Assembly: GCF_003932895.1 (NCBI RefSeq)
Contig: NZ_RQYW01000002.1
Coordinates: forward strand, 62,001 to 126,000
Direction: 5' to 3'
DNA from: Leptotrichia sp. OH3620_COT-345
Lineage (GTDB): Bacteria > Fusobacteriota > Fusobacteriia > Fusobacteriales > Leptotrichiaceae
DNA length: 64,000 nucleotides
The notes beneath the pieces were generated by a model, which was given only the letters and a program-made list of their open reading frames with translations, ran no database searches and was not told the DNA's origin. The translations under genes and the position numbers were made by a program. Below, one piece after another: positions 6,555-16,564 of this stretch; positions within the stretch are counted from its first letter, which is position 1, and every line of letters begins with the position of its first letter.

Positions 6555-8370
6555 GTATTTTTTCATTATAATTCTCATTATAGAATTATTTTTACAAGTA
6601 AATCGTATAGTAAACAAGGGAAGCTATTTTTCAATATCACAGGAAGTATCTTTTGAAAAAAAAGCTCCTAAAAATTCCAAATATCCATTTAAACGTACTC
6701 AGAAAATGCTTGTATATTATAATAAAAAATCTGAACAGTCAATGAATATACTTTATAATCTTGAGCATATGTTCAAGTACAATAAAATAAATTACACTGT
6801 GGCAGATATCGGAGAAATAATACCTACATCGGATTACGATACTTTTATTTTTGCAACGGAAACTTTTATAGGGTTTCAAAAAAGTATGTTTGAAACTATA
6901 CGGAAAGAAACTTTTGAAGGAAAAAAACTTATATTTTTAAATAATACCCCGTATAATCCCTTTAATGAAATTGCAGGAATTAAAAAAGTAGATTCCTTAG
7001 TTGAAAATTCTTCAGAAATTTTCTTTTCTGAAAAACTTTTTCCGGGTCTTGATAAATACAGTCCTACAAAAGAAATAGTAGTACATCCTACCATGAAGGT
7101 ACAAATTGACAGTGATGTTAGAATCCTTGCCAGAAGTAAGGAAAATATTCCCTTACTTTGGGAAAAAACTTATGGAAAAGGTCTTATTTTATATACAAAT
7201 GCATCATTTTTTGCCGACAGAATAACACGAGGACTTATGAATCAATGGATTGGATATGGAAATGACTGGTATATCACACCCATTTTAAATGCAAAACTGA
7301 TGCATATAGATGATTTTCCTGCCCCTGTACCCCGTACATTAAACTCAAATATCCACAATCACTATCATATAAGTACAAGGGATTTTTATAAGCAGATATG
7401 GTGGAAAGATATGCTCGAAATTGCCAAACGGAGAAATATTATTTTCAGCGGATTTATAATCATTGATTATAATCATACAGTCCGTAAGGAAAATATGAAA
7501 AGAATCTCCGATCTTACATTGAAGGATTTGAGTCTTGAAGGAAGAGAACTGTTTCTACATCACGGCGAATTGGGAGTCCACGGCTATAACCATAATCCTT
7601 TAGTTTATAACAGAAAGGAAGTAAATTTTAAAGCGCTTAATTATGTTCCATGGGAAAATCAGGAAGATATGGCGGCAAGTATAAATCAGATAAAAAGCTA
7701 TGTAAAGGAACTTTTCGGAAGCAAAGTAAAACTATATACATATGTTCCTCCAAGTAACATCATAAGAAACGAAGGACTGGAAGCTATTGTAAAAAACTTT
7801 CCTGATATGAATACCGTTTCTGCAATATTTTATGGTAATTCAGATGAGGGAGCGTATGTACAGGAAGTTGAACGTAATAGAGATTTTCCGTCTTTATACA
7901 ATCTTCCCAGATTTTCTTCAGGATTCTATTACGATAATAATGAAATGTGGAGTTTGTACAATGCCATTGCCACTTATGGCTACTGGTCACATTTTGTTCA
8001 TCCTGATGATCTTATATCCAAAGACAGAAGTAGAAACAAATCATGGGCGGAATTAAAAGGAGAATTTGAAAAAATTCTTATAGATGTTGAGGCAAATATA
8101 CCTTTTCTTACATCTATGAGAGCCGTAGATATGACAAAAAAATATGCAAACATTGAAGATATTAAAATTTTCTCTGAAAAACTGGGAAATGAAATTCATG
8201 TAGGAGTAGAAAATTTTAGAGATCCTTTTGATACATTAATAAGAGTAAGAAACAAAAAAATTAATAAAATTTCTTCAGGTACATTCAGAGAAGTTTACAA
8301 CACTGGAAATACAAGGATTTATCTTGTTTCAATAAATAATGAAGATACCACAATTTATTTAGGTGATTAA
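6544..8370 (+). CDS. pelA: PelA-type polysaccharide deacetylase (deacetylase part only)
   Basis: Probably removes acetyl groups from the N-acetylgalactosamine-rich Pel polymer outside the inner membrane. A single N-terminal membrane anchor (residues 5-20) is followed by an alpha/beta domain (about 50-245). The metal-dependent deacetylase domain follows, with HIDDFPAP at residue 254 (two Asp) and HGYNH at 346-350 as the H-x3-H metal site. TYVPPSN near 400 and WSHFVHPDD near 480 complete the active site. In Pseudomonas PelA a hydrolase domain precedes this one; here it is absent, and a separate hydrolase-like gene lies at 14191. This matches the deacetylase-only PelA known from Gram-positive pel clusters. 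It overlaps pelD by 11 bases. Confidence 0.85.
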   Translation: MKFKYFFIIILIIELFLQVNRIVNKGSYFSISQEVSFEKKAPKNSKYPFKRTQKMLVYYNKKSEQSMNILYNLEHMFKYNKINYTVADIGEIIPTSDYDTFIFATETFIGFQKSMFETIRKETFEGKKLIFLNNTPYNPFNEIAGIKKVDSLVENSSEIFFSEKLFPGLDKYSPTKEIVVHPTMKVQIDSDVRILARSKENIPLLWEKTYGKGLILYTNASFFADRITRGLMNQWIGYGNDWYITPILNAKLMHIDDFPAPVPRTLNSNIHNHYHISTRDFYKQIWWKDMLEIAKRRNIIFSGFIIIDYNHTVRKENMKRISDLTLKDLSLEGRELFLHHGELGVHGYNHNPLVYNRKEVNFKALNYVPWENQEDMAASINQIKSYVKELFGSKVKLYTYVPPSNIIRNEGLEAIVKNFPDMNTVSAIFYGNSDEGAYVQEVERNRDFPSLYNLPRFSSGFYYDNNEMWSLYNAIATYGYWSHFVHPDDLISKDRSRNKSWAELKGEFEKILIDVEANIPFLTSMRAVDMTKKYANIEDIKIFSEKLGNEIHVGVENFRDPFDTLIRVRNKKINKISSGTFREVYNTGNTRIYLVSINNEDTTIYLGD

Positions 8371-9335: not shown

Positions 9336-10754
9336 ATGGCTGTTATTTGTTTTATATGCGAGGGTTCATACCCTTACATAGTCGGGGGAGTTTCATCATG
9401 GGTTCATGAACTGATTACATCCAACCCTCAACATTTTTTTAAAATACTCTGCATCATTCCCAATAAGGAATTTGCAAAACTAAAATATAAAATACCTAAA
9501 AATGTCATAGAAATTAAAAATCTCTATATGGATCCTTATTTAGATTTTTCTTACTTGAAAGTTTTAAAAGACGGTATGGAAGAAAATCAAAATAAGGAAA
9601 AAAGTATTGAAGAGCTGCTTCGTTTTCAGATAACCGAAGAGCAGGAAAAATTGGATCGACTGGAAAATGTTTTTTCAAAGGAATTAGGTACACCTCTTGA
9701 AATTGTTTTAAGTAAAGAATATTGGAATGTCTTACTTAAATACTACGAAAAATACCATTCCAAAGGTAATTTCAGTACATATTACTGGACATATAGGAAC
9801 ATTATACTGAATCTGCTGAAAATAGGACAGGAAAATGTACCTAAAGCGAATATTTATCATAGTGTTACTACAGGATATGCAGGGTTTATATGTTCCCTTA
9901 TAGCTCATAGAAAAAACGGAAAATTTCTTCTGACTGAACACGGAATTTATCCCCGTGAAAGGGAGGAGGAAATTTTAGGAGCTACATGGATTGACAGGGA
10001 TTTTAAAAGTATATGGATTGATTATTTTTATTATCTTTCAAAACTCGCTTATAAATATGCCGATAAAATTATTTCTCTGTTTGAATACAATAGACAGATA
10101 CAGATAGAATACGGAGCTCCCGAAGAAAAAACTTTAGTTATACCTAACGGAGTGGATGAAAATAAATATGGCTCCATTGTAAAGAAAAAAAGAGAAGGAT
10201 TTCATATAGGTTCAGTTTTAAGAGTTGTTCCAATTAAAGATCTGAAGATGATGATAAAAGGATTTAAAATTGCATCGGAAAAAATGCCTGATGCCGTCCT
10301 CTGGCTTATCGGACCTACAGATGAAGATGAGGATTACTATAAAGAATGCTTACAATTGGTGGAAAATCTGGAATTAAAGGAAAAAGTCATCTTTACGGGA
10401 CGGGCTGACGTAACAGAATATTATTCTTTTCTCGACCTTCTCCTTCTGACTTCCATATCCGAGGGACAACCTCTCAGCATATTGGAAGGCCTTGCCTCAG
10501 GGATTCCATTTATTGCCACTGATGTAGGAAACTGTAGAGAAATACTCATAGAAAAAAAAGAAATAGGAGAAGCAGGAGTAATTATCCCTCCAACTTCATA
10601 TATAGCTTTGGCTGAAGCATTAGTAAATCTTTACAATAATCCTGAAAAACTGCAGAAATTTTCTGAAAATGGGAAAAAAATAATAAATAAATATTACAGA
10701 AAAAAAGATTTTATTGAAAACTATAGAAAAATATATGATGAGTTGGGAGGTTAA
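9336..10754 (+). CDS. pelF: PelF, GT4 glycosyltransferase of the Pel synthase
   Basis: Cytosolic family GT4 enzyme that polymerises the Pel sugar from a UDP-activated N-acetylhexosamine. The N-terminus CEGSYPYIVGGVSSWVHELI is the diagnostic PelF opening. The nucleotide-sugar site is visible as SVLRVVPIKDLKMM and as an E-x7-E motif in SEGQPLSILEGLASG (about residue 375). At 472 residues it is slightly shorter than the Pseudomonas protein (507). A ribosome binding site AAAGGAG precedes the start, and the stop is one base before pelG. This is the most certain of the pel calls. Confidence 0.93.
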   Translation: MAVICFICEGSYPYIVGGVSSWVHELITSNPQHFFKILCIIPNKEFAKLKYKIPKNVIEIKNLYMDPYLDFSYLKVLKDGMEENQNKEKSIEELLRFQITEEQEKLDRLENVFSKELGTPLEIVLSKEYWNVLLKYYEKYHSKGNFSTYYWTYRNIILNLLKIGQENVPKANIYHSVTTGYAGFICSLIAHRKNGKFLLTEHGIYPREREEEILGATWIDRDFKSIWIDYFYYLSKLAYKYADKIISLFEYNRQIQIEYGAPEEKTLVIPNGVDENKYGSIVKKKREGFHIGSVLRVVPIKDLKMMIKGFKIASEKMPDAVLWLIGPTDEDEDYYKECLQLVENLELKEKVIFTGRADVTEYYSFLDLLLLTSISEGQPLSILEGLASGIPFIATDVGNCREILIEKKEIGEAGVIIPPTSYIALAEALVNLYNNPEKLQKFSENGKKIINKYYRKKDFIENYRKIYDELGG

Positions 10755-10755
10755 A

Positions 10756-13065
10756 ATGGCAGGAATAGGATTTGAATTAAAAAAATTATTTTTAGAACAG
10801 GAAAAACTTTTCGGGAATATAAAAGCCCTTGTTTTTTCTGCCGCAATCAGTGTAGGACCATGGATTATAACTTCGACTTCCCTGAACCTACTCATTTTGA
10901 TTTCCAAAAGCATTAATTTATCAAGAACTGAACAGACTCTTTTTATGAGCAGTATTTTTTATGCTTTTATTTTTTCCCAGATTTTAACAGGAGCTTTCCA
11001 GTATCTTATTACAAGATATGTTTCAGACTGTATTTTTCAGGAAAAAATACATAAAATAAGAGGAGCATATTTAGGAAGCATAAAACTGACAGGGATTCTT
11101 TCATTTTTTATAAGTTTTATCTTTATAAGTAGGGGACATTTATCACCGGCTTATAAATCAGCTTTTGTACTTCTTTTTATGAGTATGTGTCTTTCATGGA
11201 TTACTATGATTTTTGTTTCATTACTGAAAAAATATCATTTTATAATTTTCAGTTTTTTTCTAGGAAATATGACTTCAGTAATTTTAGGGTACTACTTTCT
11301 AAAATATCCTGTTTCCTTTATTAATGAAACCCCGACTTTCTGGATGTTATTTTCCTACAGTGCAGGTATCTTTCTGAATTTTGTACTAACTTCAATGTAT
11401 ATACTTAGAGCCTTTCAGGGAAAAGGGAAAAATCAGTTTGAATTCCTTGTTTATTTAAAAGGATATTTCAGTTTGGTATCAATAGGAATTCTTTATATAC
11501 TCGGTGTCTGGGGACACGTTTTTATGAACTGGATTGTAGGGGATTCTTATCTCCTTGCAAATGTATTCATTATTTCCCCACTATACGAAGTTGCAGTTTT
11601 CTATTCATACTGTACTGCTATTCCAAGTATTATTTACTTTACAATTTTTCTTGAAACAAAATTTTTACCTATATACAAGGAATATTACAGCCGTATTTCC
11701 CAGACAGGTCGTTATGAGGAAATTCAGGATTCACTAAAAAGAATGAAACGAATTTTATATCAGGAAATTCTTTATGCTATGGAACTTCAGTTCCTTATAT
11801 CATTGACATTTATTTTACTGGCAAACGTAATATTCAGCCATTTTGATATGGACTCATATTTATTGGATTTATTTCGTATAACTATTTTCGGAACTTTCTG
11901 TGCAATATTTATTTCTATTTTAATTACTTTGTTCCTTTACTTTGATTTAAGACTGCAATCACTTATACTTTCTACAACTTTATTTGGAACAAGCTTAATA
12001 TTTACATATTTTTTCGGAAAACTGGGAAAAGAATTTACAGGAATGGGATTTTTCCTTTCCTCTTTCATAAGTTTCGGACTGGCAATATATATGTTCCCTA
12101 AAATATTTGATACATTAAATTATACAACCATGTTCAGACAAAATTTTAATTATAAAGTTGGAGGTGTCTTTTTGAAAAAAATCAGTTTACTGTTAGACAG
12201 AAAAATCTATATCGGAATAATAGTAGGACTTCTCTTTATTCTAGGAAGCTGCAATATTCATGCAGCATATGATAAAAGAGGATTTAATCCGAAAACACGT
12301 AATAACTGGCATACAATGAGCCAATATGACCGTGACGGCTATGATATAGACGGTTACACAAGAGAGGGAATTAATAAGAGAGGATTTAATAAGTCTCGTC
12401 TTAACACTGCTACTAAAACTCCTTATGACTATGCCGGATTTGATTTTGACGGTATACATAAAGAAACAAAGAAATCTTATGATGAAAGGGGATTTAATGT
12501 CGAGCTTTACAATATTCTGACCGACTCCCCTTATGATAAAAACGGTTTTGATCATTCAGGAATTCATAAGGATACTAAAAAAGAATATGATCATAATGGT
12601 TGGAACTATTACGGATTACATGAAAAAACAAAAGATTACTATAATCCTGAAGGGTGGAATGTAGAAGGAATTAATAAAAGAGGATTTAATAAAGACGGTT
12701 GGAATATAGAAACTAAAAGTAAGTATGACGGGGGAGGATTTGATTTAAGCGGTACTCATAAAGTTACTAAAAAAAAGTATGACGAAAGAGGATTTGATGT
12801 AAATCAGTACAATCATTTTACACACTCTCTTTATGATAAATACGGATTTAATTATGAAGGTATAAACAAAGACACCAAAAGGGAATATGATAAAAACGGT
12901 TGGACTTACTACGGGTTACATGAAAAAACAAAAACTTATTACAATCCTCAAGGATATAACAGAGAGGGCTTTGACAGAGAAGGATACAGAAAAGGACAAA
13001 GACCTGAAGATGAATACGATAAAAACGGGTTTAACAAAAAAGGAATATATATAAAGGGGTACTAA
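10756..13065 (+). CDS. pelG: PelG membrane translocase, in frame with a C-terminal repeat domain
   Basis: Residues 1-470 are a PelG-type polytopic protein: MAGIGFELKKLF and SVGPWIITS are typical, and about 12 membrane segments follow. It should move the growing Pel chain across the inner membrane together with PelF. PelG normally ends near 455-475 residues. Here the frame continues without a stop for about 297 more codons, first a hydrophobic stretch ending in a lipobox, then a Tyr/Asp/Gly-rich repeat domain, to 769 residues. The start at 10756 has a GGGAGG ribosome binding site; an in-frame ATG at 10714 lies inside pelF and has none. The internal TTG at 12172 could make the last part a separate protein (see next entry). 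Confidence 0.88.
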   Translation: MAGIGFELKKLFLEQEKLFGNIKALVFSAAISVGPWIITSTSLNLLILISKSINLSRTEQTLFMSSIFYAFIFSQILTGAFQYLITRYVSDCIFQEKIHKIRGAYLGSIKLTGILSFFISFIFISRGHLSPAYKSAFVLLFMSMCLSWITMIFVSLLKKYHFIIFSFFLGNMTSVILGYYFLKYPVSFINETPTFWMLFSYSAGIFLNFVLTSMYILRAFQGKGKNQFEFLVYLKGYFSLVSIGILYILGVWGHVFMNWIVGDSYLLANVFIISPLYEVAVFYSYCTAIPSIIYFTIFLETKFLPIYKEYYSRISQTGRYEEIQDSLKRMKRILYQEILYAMELQFLISLTFILLANVIFSHFDMDSYLLDLFRITIFGTFCAIFISILITLFLYFDLRLQSLILSTTLFGTSLIFTYFFGKLGKEFTGMGFFLSSFISFGLAIYMFPKIFDTLNYTTMFRQNFNYKVGGVFLKKISLLLDRKIYIGIIVGLLFILGSCNIHAAYDKRGFNPKTRNNWHTMSQYDRDGYDIDGYTREGINKRGFNKSRLNTATKTPYDYAGFDFDGIHKETKKSYDERGFNVELYNILTDSPYDKNGFDHSGIHKDTKKEYDHNGWNYYGLHEKTKDYYNPEGWNVEGINKRGFNKDGWNIETKSKYDGGGFDLSGTHKVTKKKYDERGFDVNQYNHFTHSLYDKYGFNYEGINKDTKREYDKNGWTYYGLHEKTKTYYNPQGYNREGFDREGYRKGQRPEDEYDKNGFNKKGIYIKGY
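12172..13065 (+). CDS. Nested repeat lipoprotein, alternative in-frame start inside pelG
   Basis: A TTG codon at 12172, in the pelG frame, stands seven bases behind GGAGG. From it reads MKKISLLLDRKIYIGIIVGL and then LFILGSC, a proper lipoprotein signal with Cys at residue 27, and a 270-residue repeat domain. So the ribosome could make a 297-residue lipoprotein on its own, as well as, or instead of, the PelG fusion. If fused, the signal would act as one more membrane span and would still place the repeats outside the inner membrane. An outer-membrane lipoprotein next to a barrel gene recalls PelC beside PelB in Pseudomonas, but no sequence likeness to PelC is seen. Confidence 0.5.
   Translation: MKKISLLLDRKIYIGIIVGLLFILGSCNIHAAYDKRGFNPKTRNNWHTMSQYDRDGYDIDGYTREGINKRGFNKSRLNTATKTPYDYAGFDFDGIHKETKKSYDERGFNVELYNILTDSPYDKNGFDHSGIHKDTKKEYDHNGWNYYGLHEKTKDYYNPEGWNVEGINKRGFNKDGWNIETKSKYDGGGFDLSGTHKVTKKKYDERGFDVNQYNHFTHSLYDKYGFNYEGINKDTKREYDKNGWTYYGLHEKTKTYYNPQGYNREGFDREGYRKGQRPEDEYDKNGFNKKGIYIKGY
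12268..13062 (+). repeat. Protein-coding repeat region, Y-D-x2-G-[FW]-N type
   Basis: The encoded repeats have short units such as YDKNGFD, GIHKDTKKEYD and GLHEKTK with regular Tyr, Asp, Gly and Phe/Trp. A larger unit of 100 codons is also duplicated: the block starting at 12424 (YDYAGFDFDGIHKETKK) recurs exactly 300 bases later at 12724 (YDGGGFDLSGTHKVTKK). The following subunit (EYDHNGWNYYGLHEKTK) recurs too (EYDKNGWTYYGLHEKTK). This shows growth by in-frame duplication. Confidence 0.85.
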
Positions 13066-14033
13066 TGAAAATAAAATTAAAAATACTTTTTGCTTTAACA
13101 GCTTTTTCGATATTTTCCTTTTCAGAAGAAGAAAATCTTGAAAAAGGCGATATTGTACTAAAAGACAGAGGAGTGGAAAAGTTGAATTTTTATCATCCTG
13201 TAAAAGAACAAAATAAATTTTCCACTTTTACAGAATTTGACTTCCGCCCCGATAAAAACATTTATCAGTGGACTTTAGCCGAAGGATATCAATCCATCAC
13301 TAACTTATGGGACTTCAACTATAAAATAGAAAAGGAATTTCATCAGGAAAAAAACAGGGAAAAGCCTGATTCGCATGTCTGGGATAATGAAATATCTCTT
13401 GTAAGAAGAAATAAGGATAAAAAAATTGGAAATTCGACATGGGCTTATAGAACTTTCTTTAAAATTAATCATGCTGAAACCGACGGGAAAAAAATACAAA
13501 GAACTTCTACTTATAAATTTTATGGAGGGCAGAAAATTTCATCTTTTCTTTCTTTAGGAAAAGGAGGAACTTATGTAGAATTTGAAGCCGCTGCAGGTGG
13601 AGTTAAAGGAAGCTTAAAAAACGGATATTCATTACTTGTATCACTTAAAACAGGCAGTAATCTCGGATATGGAATACAATGGAGCAATACTTTTGAAAAT
13701 GAATATATGAATTACAATCAATATAGAAAAATAAATAAATCCAAATGGGAAACTTTATTAAAGTGGACATATGAACTGAATGAAAATTGGGCATTTTCTC
13801 CTGAACTGAATTTCAAAATAGAAAACTTTATTCCGAAAAAACAGGAAAATTATGCTATTGAATCAACAATCGGATCTTATATACTATACTCAAAAAATTT
13901 GAATGATCGTCTAAGAATTTTCGGGAAAATAGGACCTTCATACAGAATAGAGAAAAGTAAATCTAAGGATTTCCATTATTCAAAATCTGGATTTGCAGGT
14001 TATGCCAGACTCGGTATAGAATATATTTTCTAA
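13065..14033 (+). CDS. Outer-membrane beta-barrel protein of the pel operon
   Basis: The product (322 residues) has a Sec signal peptide (MKIKLKILFALTAFSIFSFS). A chain of amphipathic strands follows, with alternating hydrophobic residues and frequent aromatic belt residues, and it ends in YARLGIEYIF; a terminal Phe is the usual outer-membrane barrel signal. The start overlaps the preceding stop by one base (TAATG), so it is translated with pelG. No TPR region is seen, unlike Pseudomonas PelB, whose C-terminal barrel it may replace as the exit channel for the polymer. That role is inferred from position. The alternative is an unrelated barrel carried in the operon. Confidence 0.7.
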   Translation: MKIKLKILFALTAFSIFSFSEEENLEKGDIVLKDRGVEKLNFYHPVKEQNKFSTFTEFDFRPDKNIYQWTLAEGYQSITNLWDFNYKIEKEFHQEKNREKPDSHVWDNEISLVRRNKDKKIGNSTWAYRTFFKINHAETDGKKIQRTSTYKFYGGQKISSFLSLGKGGTYVEFEAAAGGVKGSLKNGYSLLVSLKTGSNLGYGIQWSNTFENEYMNYNQYRKINKSKWETLLKWTYELNENWAFSPELNFKIENFIPKKQENYAIESTIGSYILYSKNLNDRLRIFGKIGPSYRIEKSKSKDFHYSKSGFAGYARLGIEYIF

Positions 14034-14190
14034 ATCATTATTTTTATAAGATTAATATTTATGATACAATATTTTAACTCAAAATAAAAAATATAATCTT
14101 ATTTTCAAATATTTTCTATTATTATGCAACAAGAAAATATAAAAAACTAAATTTCTTATTAAGTAATATTTTTGAAAGGAACTGTACTAT

Positions 14191-15219
14191 ATGAAAAAAT
14201 ATATATTTTTACTGATTTTTGTATTCTGTATCTCATGTTTTTCAAAGGAAAATCCTTCAAAGGAAATATCTTTAAAAAAAGAAGAAACAAAAAAGGAAAC
14301 CTTCGTGCAGGATTCTGCTAAAGAAATTCCCGAAGAAATATATCGTAACAGAATGAAGAATTTTATAAGGGAGATACGTAACAATACAGAAAAAAACAGA
14401 ATCATTATTACACAGAACGGAAATGAACTATACTTCAGTAACGGAAAAATTGATATGAATTTTTTTAATGTTACTAATGGAACTACACAAGAATCTCTAT
14501 ATTATGGGGATGTGTTAAAATTCAACATTCCTACTTCAAAAAAACTGAAAAATGAATTACTGAACCTCGCTATTCCTGTAAGAAAAGCCGGAAAACCTGT
14601 CTTTGTTATTAATTATGGAAAAGGGCAGACAAAAAAAGATTTTCTTATTAAGGAAGATATAAAAACAGGATTTATAAGTGAAATATTGCCTAACTTTGAA
14701 GCTAAAAATATATATTCTCCTGTCAGAGGATATAATACCGGCAATATTACTTCATTAAATCAGGTCAAAAATTTCTTATGTCTTTTAAATCCTGAAAACT
14801 TTAAGGATATTAACGAATATTTTGAATATCTGAAAAATACGGATTATGATCTACTGCTCATAGAACCTTCCCATAATGGGATATTTTTTACAAAAGAGCA
14901 GACGGAACAGCTGAAAACAAAAAAGAACGGTGGAAAAAGAATAGTAATCGCCTATTTTAGCATAGGAGAAGCTGAAGATTATAGAAGTTATTGGAATAAA
15001 TCATGGAGTAAAAAAAGACCTGAATGGATTGTTGGCGAAAATCCTGACTGGAAAGGAAATTATGTAGTGAAATACTGGAGATCTGAATGGAAAAATATTG
15101 TAAAAGGATACCAGAAAAAACTCGATGCAATAGGTGTAGATGGCTATCTTCTTGATACGGTGGATTCTTATTATTATTTTCAGGATAAAGCAGAGAAGGG
15201 GAAAAAAATTCCTGACTAA
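14191..15219 (+). CDS. Lipoprotein with a GH114-like glycoside hydrolase domain, apparently truncated
   Basis: A lipoprotein signal (FVFCISC, Cys near residue 11) leads to about 170 residues of unknown region. Next comes a domain of the MJ1477/TM1410, endo-alpha-1,4-polygalactosaminidase kind: YFSIGEAEDYRSYW, RPEWIVGENPDWKGNY, then GVDGYLLDTVDSYYYF. This is the family to which the hydrolase part of PelA is related, so the protein probably trims or frees Pel polymer at the outer membrane. Family members usually go on for about 100 more residues to complete the TIM barrel; this one stops soon after the sixth strand (343 residues). A hairpin lies 12 bases after the stop. It has its own ribosome binding site, 157 bases after the barrel gene. 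Confidence 0.72.
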   Translation: MKKYIFLLIFVFCISCFSKENPSKEISLKKEETKKETFVQDSAKEIPEEIYRNRMKNFIREIRNNTEKNRIIITQNGNELYFSNGKIDMNFFNVTNGTTQESLYYGDVLKFNIPTSKKLKNELLNLAIPVRKAGKPVFVINYGKGQTKKDFLIKEDIKTGFISEILPNFEAKNIYSPVRGYNTGNITSLNQVKNFLCLLNPENFKDINEYFEYLKNTDYDLLLIEPSHNGIFFTKEQTEQLKTKKNGGKRIVIAYFSIGEAEDYRSYWNKSWSKKRPEWIVGENPDWKGNYVVKYWRSEWKNIVKGYQKKLDAIGVDGYLLDTVDSYYYFQDKAEKGKKIPD

Positions 15220-15652: not shown

Positions 15653-16564
15653 GTGAAAAAGTTATTTAGAAAAAAGTTTTTAAAATTGTTAGAAGTTATC
15701 TTTTTTATATTTTTTTTATTGGGATGTTTTAACGAAAAAAGTAAAATAAAAACAAGCAAGCTTGAATTTCAAAATCAAAAATACATAAGTGAGGAAATAT
15801 CAAAAAAAAGTAATAAAATAAATCGTAATCTTCCATCTTTGGAATATAAATATAAAATAATTATAAATCAACCGGGTGGAATAGTCCATACTCAAGATGA
15901 AAATTACTATTCTGTAGATAAAAATGAAAATGAAAAAATATGGGAAAAAATGGTTATAAAAGAACTGGAAAAGCTTAATCCTGTTCCTGAAAATGCTTCA
16001 GATGAGGAAATACAACATCTTCTGAAACAATTTATATATATTATGGGCTCTAAGTATGAAGCTATAGAAACTTTCGACAAATTTTCCCATGTTATTTTTA
16101 AAAGTGAGGAAACTGATTCAACTATTGATAGGAAGATGGCTGTTGACGAGTTAAATGTCACAGAAAACAGTCAGGAAAAATTAGATGAAAACTTAATAAA
16201 AAAACTTCAAGATTCTCATTATAATATATTAAAAGCCAATTCGAGATTAAAAGATGAAACTGTATCTGAAATAAATAATCTGTATAAGACATTCAGAATG
16301 GCTTCAGACTCTAATTATATTAAAAATCCTATCTTTAAATTTGACGGTATTGTGTCATCAAAGCTTTTTAGATTGGGAGAAAAAAGAAATCTTAAAATCT
16401 ATTCCCTTTATGAAGAGGAATTGGAAAAACTCCAAAAGCAGTCTGAAGAGTATTTAAAAAAAGTTAAGCTGCGAACGGGAGAAACGGTAATTTACGTTCC
16501 TACTACAAGTACGGTTACTCCTTCCAGTAAGTATTATAAAGAGAAAAAAGAAAGAAAAAATTAA
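15653..16564 (+). CDS. Lipoprotein of unknown function
   Basis: I do not recognise a family. The product has 303 residues with a basic, hydrophobic leader ending in the lipobox FLLGC (Cys near residue 25). The mature protein is hydrophilic and mostly helical, rich in Lys, Glu and Asn, with a helical section around residues 95-215 and a coiled-coil-like part near 245-275. Its tail is basic and probably disordered. The start is GTG behind AAAGGAAGTGA. It stands alone between the pel operon and a convergent gene, and shares a two-way terminator with it at 16588-16613. A role tied to the polysaccharide is possible only by proximity. Confidence 0.65.
   Translation: MKKLFRKKFLKLLEVIFFIFFLLGCFNEKSKIKTSKLEFQNQKYISEEISKKSNKINRNLPSLEYKYKIIINQPGGIVHTQDENYYSVDKNENEKIWEKMVIKELEKLNPVPENASDEEIQHLLKQFIYIMGSKYEAIETFDKFSHVIFKSEETDSTIDRKMAVDELNVTENSQEKLDENLIKKLQDSHYNILKANSRLKDETVSEINNLYKTFRMASDSNYIKNPIFKFDGIVSSKLFRLGEKRNLKIYSLYEEELEKLQKQSEEYLKKVKLRTGETVIYVPTTSTVTPSSKYYKEKKERKN

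Follow-up and report, generated by a model that had tools for sequence, protein, structure and literature searches.

Can one gene supply both a polysaccharide exporter and a lipoprotein? The question arises at a pelG gene in the window, the whole stretch of 64,000 nucleotides that was analysed, where the first-pass annotation had found no stop codon between PelG and a following lipoprotein signal. The reading-frame check of the window bears this out. A single uninterrupted frame at 10714-13065 spans PelG and the lipoprotein part, and its product from the conserved PelG start, the ATG at 10756 (MAGIGFE) directly preceded by gggaggtta, has 769 amino acids. The pelG gene is fused in frame to the lipoprotein gene that follows it in the pel operon, and one frame joins a polytopic protein to an exported protein through a signal sequence. 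The locus is laid out as follows.

9336-10754, plus strand: pelF glycosyltransferase gene (PF11997, PF00534), immediately upstream of pelG; order conserved
10756-12129, plus strand: PelG domain, a 12-TM MATE/MOP-type flippase, residues 1-458 (PF16933, E=1.4e-126)
12130-12204, plus strand: cytoplasmic linker and amphipathic helix, residues about 459-483 (AlphaFold2 helix 471-481)
12160-12164, plus strand: GGAGG, Shine-Dalgarno-like and in frame, part of a 7-nt anti-SD match (GGAGGTG)
12172-12174, plus strand: in-frame TTG, candidate internal start at residue 473, with 297 codons to the stop and a 297-residue product
12205-12249, plus strand: h-region of the 13th membrane span (TM13), ending in the lipobox residues L-G-S, about residues 484-498 (AlphaFold2 helix 484-497)
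12250-12252, plus strand: codon of lipobox Cys499, with which the mature lipoprotein is predicted to begin in lipidated form
12253-13062, plus strand: exported passenger with YDxxGF-type pentad/18-residue repeats, 270 residues, no further Cys
13063-13065, plus strand: stop codon TAA, overlapping the ATG (13065) of the downstream outer-membrane protein gene
13065-14033, plus strand: outer-membrane beta-barrel gene (PF13505, E=3.7e-8), whose place after the passenger is conserved in fusobacterial pel operons

The PelG domain matches its Pfam profile over the whole domain with 423.5 bits against a cut-off of 29. In an AlphaFold model of the whole fusion (mean pLDDT 80.5), this part resembles the MATE, MurJ and WzxE flippase structures. 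The linker and amphipathic stretch that follows can be aligned to the PelG tail of an unfused clade, genus g27. The lipoprotein signal had been expected to form an extra membrane span, and hydropathy (KD peak of 2.02 at residues 478-496) and the AlphaFold2 helix identify it as the 13th. Because the MATE/MOP fold of PelG puts the C-terminus inside, TM13 is predicted from fold and hydropathy to point outward, the orientation required of a signal peptide. The segment reads LGSC, in agreement with the lipobox pattern [LVIFM]-x-[GAS]-C, and has positive charges (RK) ahead of a hydrophobic h-region of 14 residues.

The passenger gave no significant match in Pfam, in NCBIfam or in the PDB searched by sequence and by fold. 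Its structure model is confident (AlphaFold2 mean pLDDT 89.7) and suggests what is possibly a new solenoid of (Y/F)(D/N)xxG pentads. Similar YDxxG repeats are present in other Fusobacteriota (L013, L014-L018): some stand-alone lipoproteins and single-span membrane proteins contain them, and so does a helicase-like protein, at its N-terminus. Around the fusion, pelF adjoins pelG, DUF2194/PelA-like and PelE-like genes are present in the window, and the pel gene order is conserved in fusobacterial relatives. The beta-barrel gene is a candidate replacement for PelB. It is followed by a lipoprotein-like gene for a GH114-family hydrolase with ISC (14191-15219), and a further lipoprotein-like gene with LLGC is located at 15653-16564.

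PelG scores above the family cut-off in 24 of 98 Fusobacteriota genomes. Comparison of the junction in relatives, which had been proposed as a check, found it fused and without a stop in 18 of the 24 complete fusobacterial PelG frames. These fusions, composed of PelG, TM13 and the repeat domain, come from many genera, are 93-43% identical to that of the window and have open frames throughout; in the PelG tree they form one group (support 100) that adjoins g27. Two further frames (G078, G079) carry another extension of ~530 residues after TM13, without a lipobox, and four, all of genus g27 (G089, G092, G094, G096), end at 513 residues after TM13. Beyond the 24 complete frames, one copy is broken (G028) and another is truncated at the end of a contig. 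The G028 frameshift lies in a T9 run of pelG (L079, about 7397-7407) and is a sequencing error, decay or phase variation; TM13 and the passenger are still open there, with an SD and GTG. PelG of genus g23 (L057:7142-10237, L059:4201-7350) has TM13 and an extension of ~530-550 residues in which the lipobox is absent, and the extension examined (L057) has no Pfam match. Genome G064 contains two pel operons (L061, L066), each with a PelG-repeat fusion.

These counts decide against a sequencing or assembly error that erased the stop between two normal genes. The stop in g27 is its sole supporting point, and 18 independent open fusions at such varied identity rule it out, leaving it a negligible probability. 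The supposition that related genomes would always show a stop fails as well, since a stop occurs only in one sister clade.

That sister clade is informative about the domain itself. In the four g27 genomes, pelG ends with TAA, and ggaag, an ATG and a stand-alone lipoprotein gene are located close behind. The stand-alone product reads MKYIWIIIITILISGC/TSYDEKGFNDTTHRNWHSMS..., and the lipoboxes of the clade are ISGC, MAGC and MTGC; where it is encoded by its own gene, the repeat domain is a predicted lipoprotein. The mature form starts with C-x-S-YD..GFN..T.RNWHSM and matches the fusions from just behind Cys (Cys499 in the window), as in GGC/TSYDKKGFNNVTKRNWHTMG at the matching point of the G042 fusion, and Cys499 aligns with Cys+1 of the stand-alone lipoproteins. 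Because the mature g27 domain begins where the fusions continue past Cys, the fusion appears to retain the site of cleavage at the equivalent residue.

LFILGSC had been judged a good lipobox, and its Cys is indeed conserved across relatives beyond chance. Outside the window's family, all 14 repeat fusions retain Cys, and it is their sole invariant column of 40 (-34 to +5). Position -1 is G or S and position -3 is L, I or F, and only one other Cys is present in 4065 passenger residues. Cys lies 15-17 residues after the last charged residue, a spacing like that of a signal peptide.

A second set of fusions was found by the genome scan in Bacillales, where the matches listed include 16 PelG fusions of about 1030 residues each (L087, L093, L094, L099, L100, L108, L113, L115, L117-L120, L127, L128, L145, L149) from Paenibacillus, Brevibacillus, Rummeliibacillus, Solibacillus and Psychrobacillus. 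They comprise PelG, TM13 and a CotH kinase domain (PF08757, E about 1e-63 in the three tested). The CotH passenger is unrelated to the repeat domain: PF08757 is absent from the window's passenger, and only the overall architecture is common to both. Among the matches listed, a lipobox ends TM13 in 16 of 16, Cys is again the sole invariant column between -34 and +5, no other Cys occurs in 8712 passenger residues, and the last charged residue is mostly 16-17 residues from Cys; position -1 is A, G or S and position -3 is L, I or M. Unfused Paenibacillus and relatives have a PelG of about 470 residues, with cotH as the next gene. The separate CotH of five loci (L103, L107, L109, L111, L112) begins with a lipoprotein-type signal ending in GC; a lipobox is not evident in the separate CotH of Metabacillus, Domibacillus and Clostridia. 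The CotH fusions group together in the PelG tree (support 99), separately from the fusobacterial fusions, and the phylogeny establishes that the predicted PelG-lipoprotein fusion arose twice independently, in Fusobacteriota and in Bacillales. Each set has accumulated roughly five changes per column (summed branch lengths). Invariance of Cys in two independent sets rules out a chance lipobox, and the substitution pattern demonstrates that the predicted lipobox is under selection in the fusions.

The same conservation bears on whether the protein stays whole. A periplasmic repeat domain permanently tethered to PelG via TM13, with Cys unprocessed, would agree with the wide conservation of the fused frame and with the lipobox-less extension of the g23 PelGs. 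We nevertheless consider it improbable: Cys and positions -3/-1 are strictly conserved in two independent fusions from which other Cys are nearly absent, and the unfused homologues are lipoproteins with a predicted cut at the same place.

The cleavage-and-lipid-attachment signal retained inside the fusion suggests instead that one chain is cut into an exporter and a lipoprotein. A PelG-lipoprotein polyprotein, cut at its internal lipobox by Lgt and LspA, is in our judgement the best explanation and a likely one; the host genome encodes both enzymes. We infer the cleavage, lipidation, destination and role of the lipoprotein as follows. The primary product would be one membrane polyprotein in which PelG has 12 spans with its C-terminus inside, and the 13th span, oriented N-in/C-out, would double as an internal lipoprotein signal. 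Lgt would add diacylglycerol to Cys499 and LspA would cut before it, so that PelG would keep a 13-span tail and the YDxxGF-repeat domain would be released as a free lipoprotein. The lipoprotein may act near PelG or move to the outer membrane, where the beta-barrel of the next gene sits. Because the passenger sits between the exporter and the outer-membrane barrel, our guess is that the released lipoprotein might aid Pel across the periplasm or the outer membrane, as PelC does.

The passenger could also be translated separately. GGAGG and TTG had been noticed where an independent lipoprotein would begin, and both were located in frame, at 12160 and 12172. With a nested gene, this site would be the main source of the passenger, made as an ordinary lipoprotein, and the PelG fusion would stay uncut or be unneeded. 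The 7-nt SD is well spaced before the TTG, and all five genomes of the window's family, f1 (G000, G001, G009, G011 and G028), have an SD and a start at one aligned site. The SD lengths are 7, 7, 6, 6 and 5 nt in that order; the start is TTG in the first four and GTG in G028, where a Leu-to-Val change still leaves a start codon. Synonymous-codon shuffles gave P=0.006, 0.008, 0.076, 0.042 and 0.15, respectively, for the SD with start. The combined P, which omits the near-duplicate G001 and takes the genomes as independent, is 0.0013 over the other four and 0.018 without the discovery genome. Among the 48 Leu columns common to G000, G009 and G011, TTG is used in all three at one column, namely that with the SD, and this is the sole start-type site common to them with an SD of at least 5 nt throughout. 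The statistical support is moderate, because it is partly due to amino-acid conservation (Gly-Gly, Leu). Promoter-consensus matches within 11900-14200 number 18 versus 12.5 expected (sd 3.1), and the best on the plus strand (12194-12221) lies downstream of the TTG.

No convincing internal start was found in the fusions outside f1, where SD matches are 0-4 nt and reach 5 nt in G042 only. The close relative G055 has a 3-nt match, and it and the other fusions without the site all keep the lipobox and the domain. G056, G064b, L087, L093, L115 and L128 have no ATG, GTG or TTG 10-40 residues upstream of Cys, and the Bacillales fusions among the matches listed have no internal ribosome-binding sites. 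A lipoprotein signal at its own N-terminus is possible in the window's family via the SD and TTG and absent in most relatives. The family's fusion frame is also still open, though separate initiation would permit a stop. As the main source of the passenger, a nested gene is an unlikely explanation, and as a general mechanism the internal start is ruled out outside the window's family by the absent sites. The nested start itself is probably real, as its alignment across f1 suggests, and restricted to that family. The earlier proposal of two products, a 769-residue fusion and a 297-residue lipoprotein, is supported by the SD and TTG common to the family and does not carry over to most fused relatives, which have no usable start. 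Since most fused relatives strictly keep the lipobox Cys without a usable internal start, cleavage is likelier than separate initiation to be the general route.

The g27 sequence ttggaagtg..ATG raised the idea that the internal SD is a relic of an old lipoprotein ribosome-binding site. This was rejected, as fused outgroups such as G055, G042, G053 and g17 have no comparable site. Their lack of it, and the alignment of the stretch to the tail of PelG, make later gain likelier; in the polyprotein model, the window's family would have added the SD and TTG later, which may provide extra lipoprotein without PelG.

Two observations count against the polyprotein. The lipobox-less extension in G078 and G079 suggests that PelG tolerates a permanently tethered domain, and G009, G011 and G028 retain the passenger domain and have lost the lipobox Cys. 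The junctions of these three read ...KANA/AYD, ...KIKAS/TYD and ...KAHA/AYD and look like signal peptidase I sites; the window's protein keeps Cys and also has NIHA/AYD. Nearly every lineage appears to free the domain from the membrane span, by differing means: its own gene in g27, the internal lipobox in most fusions, and, in part of f1, a signal-peptidase-I-like site with the internal start. We lean towards a broader account in which Lgt and LspA would excise a lipoprotein from the end of a polytopic transporter, with at least two origins around PelG, and in which one family would have added an internal start and partly swapped the lipobox for a signal peptidase I site.

If this is true, a lipoprotein signal would not have to lie at the N-terminus, Lgt and LspA could process the final one of 13 spans in a protein, and an exporter and its accessory lipoprotein would be made in a fixed one-to-one ratio. 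The model predicts lipoproteins hidden at transporter ends and missed by genome annotation. It also points to a likely lipoprotein component for the Pel system of fusobacteria, and the fused, unfused, lipobox, no-lipobox and internal-start forms provide a natural comparison set.

In streptococci and clostridia, cotH is described near the pel genes, separate and downstream, in passages of PMC7112168 and PMC12345266. These operons likewise have an exported accessory protein near pelG, but as separate genes, and the accounts of cotH near pel in those passages do not mention PelG fusions or lipoboxes. PelC of Pseudomonas aeruginosa is, in the relevant part of PMC12141448, the outer-membrane lipoprotein of Pel export. 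Like the predicted lipoprotein of the window, PelC is a pel-operon lipoprotein adjoining an outer-membrane barrel; it differs in having its own gene, and it is likened to the YDxxGF-repeat domain by position, not sequence. The stand-alone YDxxGF-repeat lipoproteins (g27; L014-L016) share the domain and the lipobox, and those of g27 also the operon position, but they are unfused, with their own start codon and ribosome-binding site. The papers searched contained no report of an internal lipobox, or of a polytopic protein whose 13th span is processed by Lgt or LspA. The nearest precedent for the proposed polyprotein would be FbcH of Bradyrhizobium japonicum, the cytochrome b/c1 precursor, in which a polytopic membrane protein and an exported protein are separated by signal peptidase. 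In both cases, one gene encodes a polytopic membrane protein and, behind it, an exported one that brings its own signal sequence. FbcH uses signal peptidase I and delivers a cytochrome, whereas the window combines a lipobox, the predicted substrate of Lgt and LspA, with a polysaccharide exporter.
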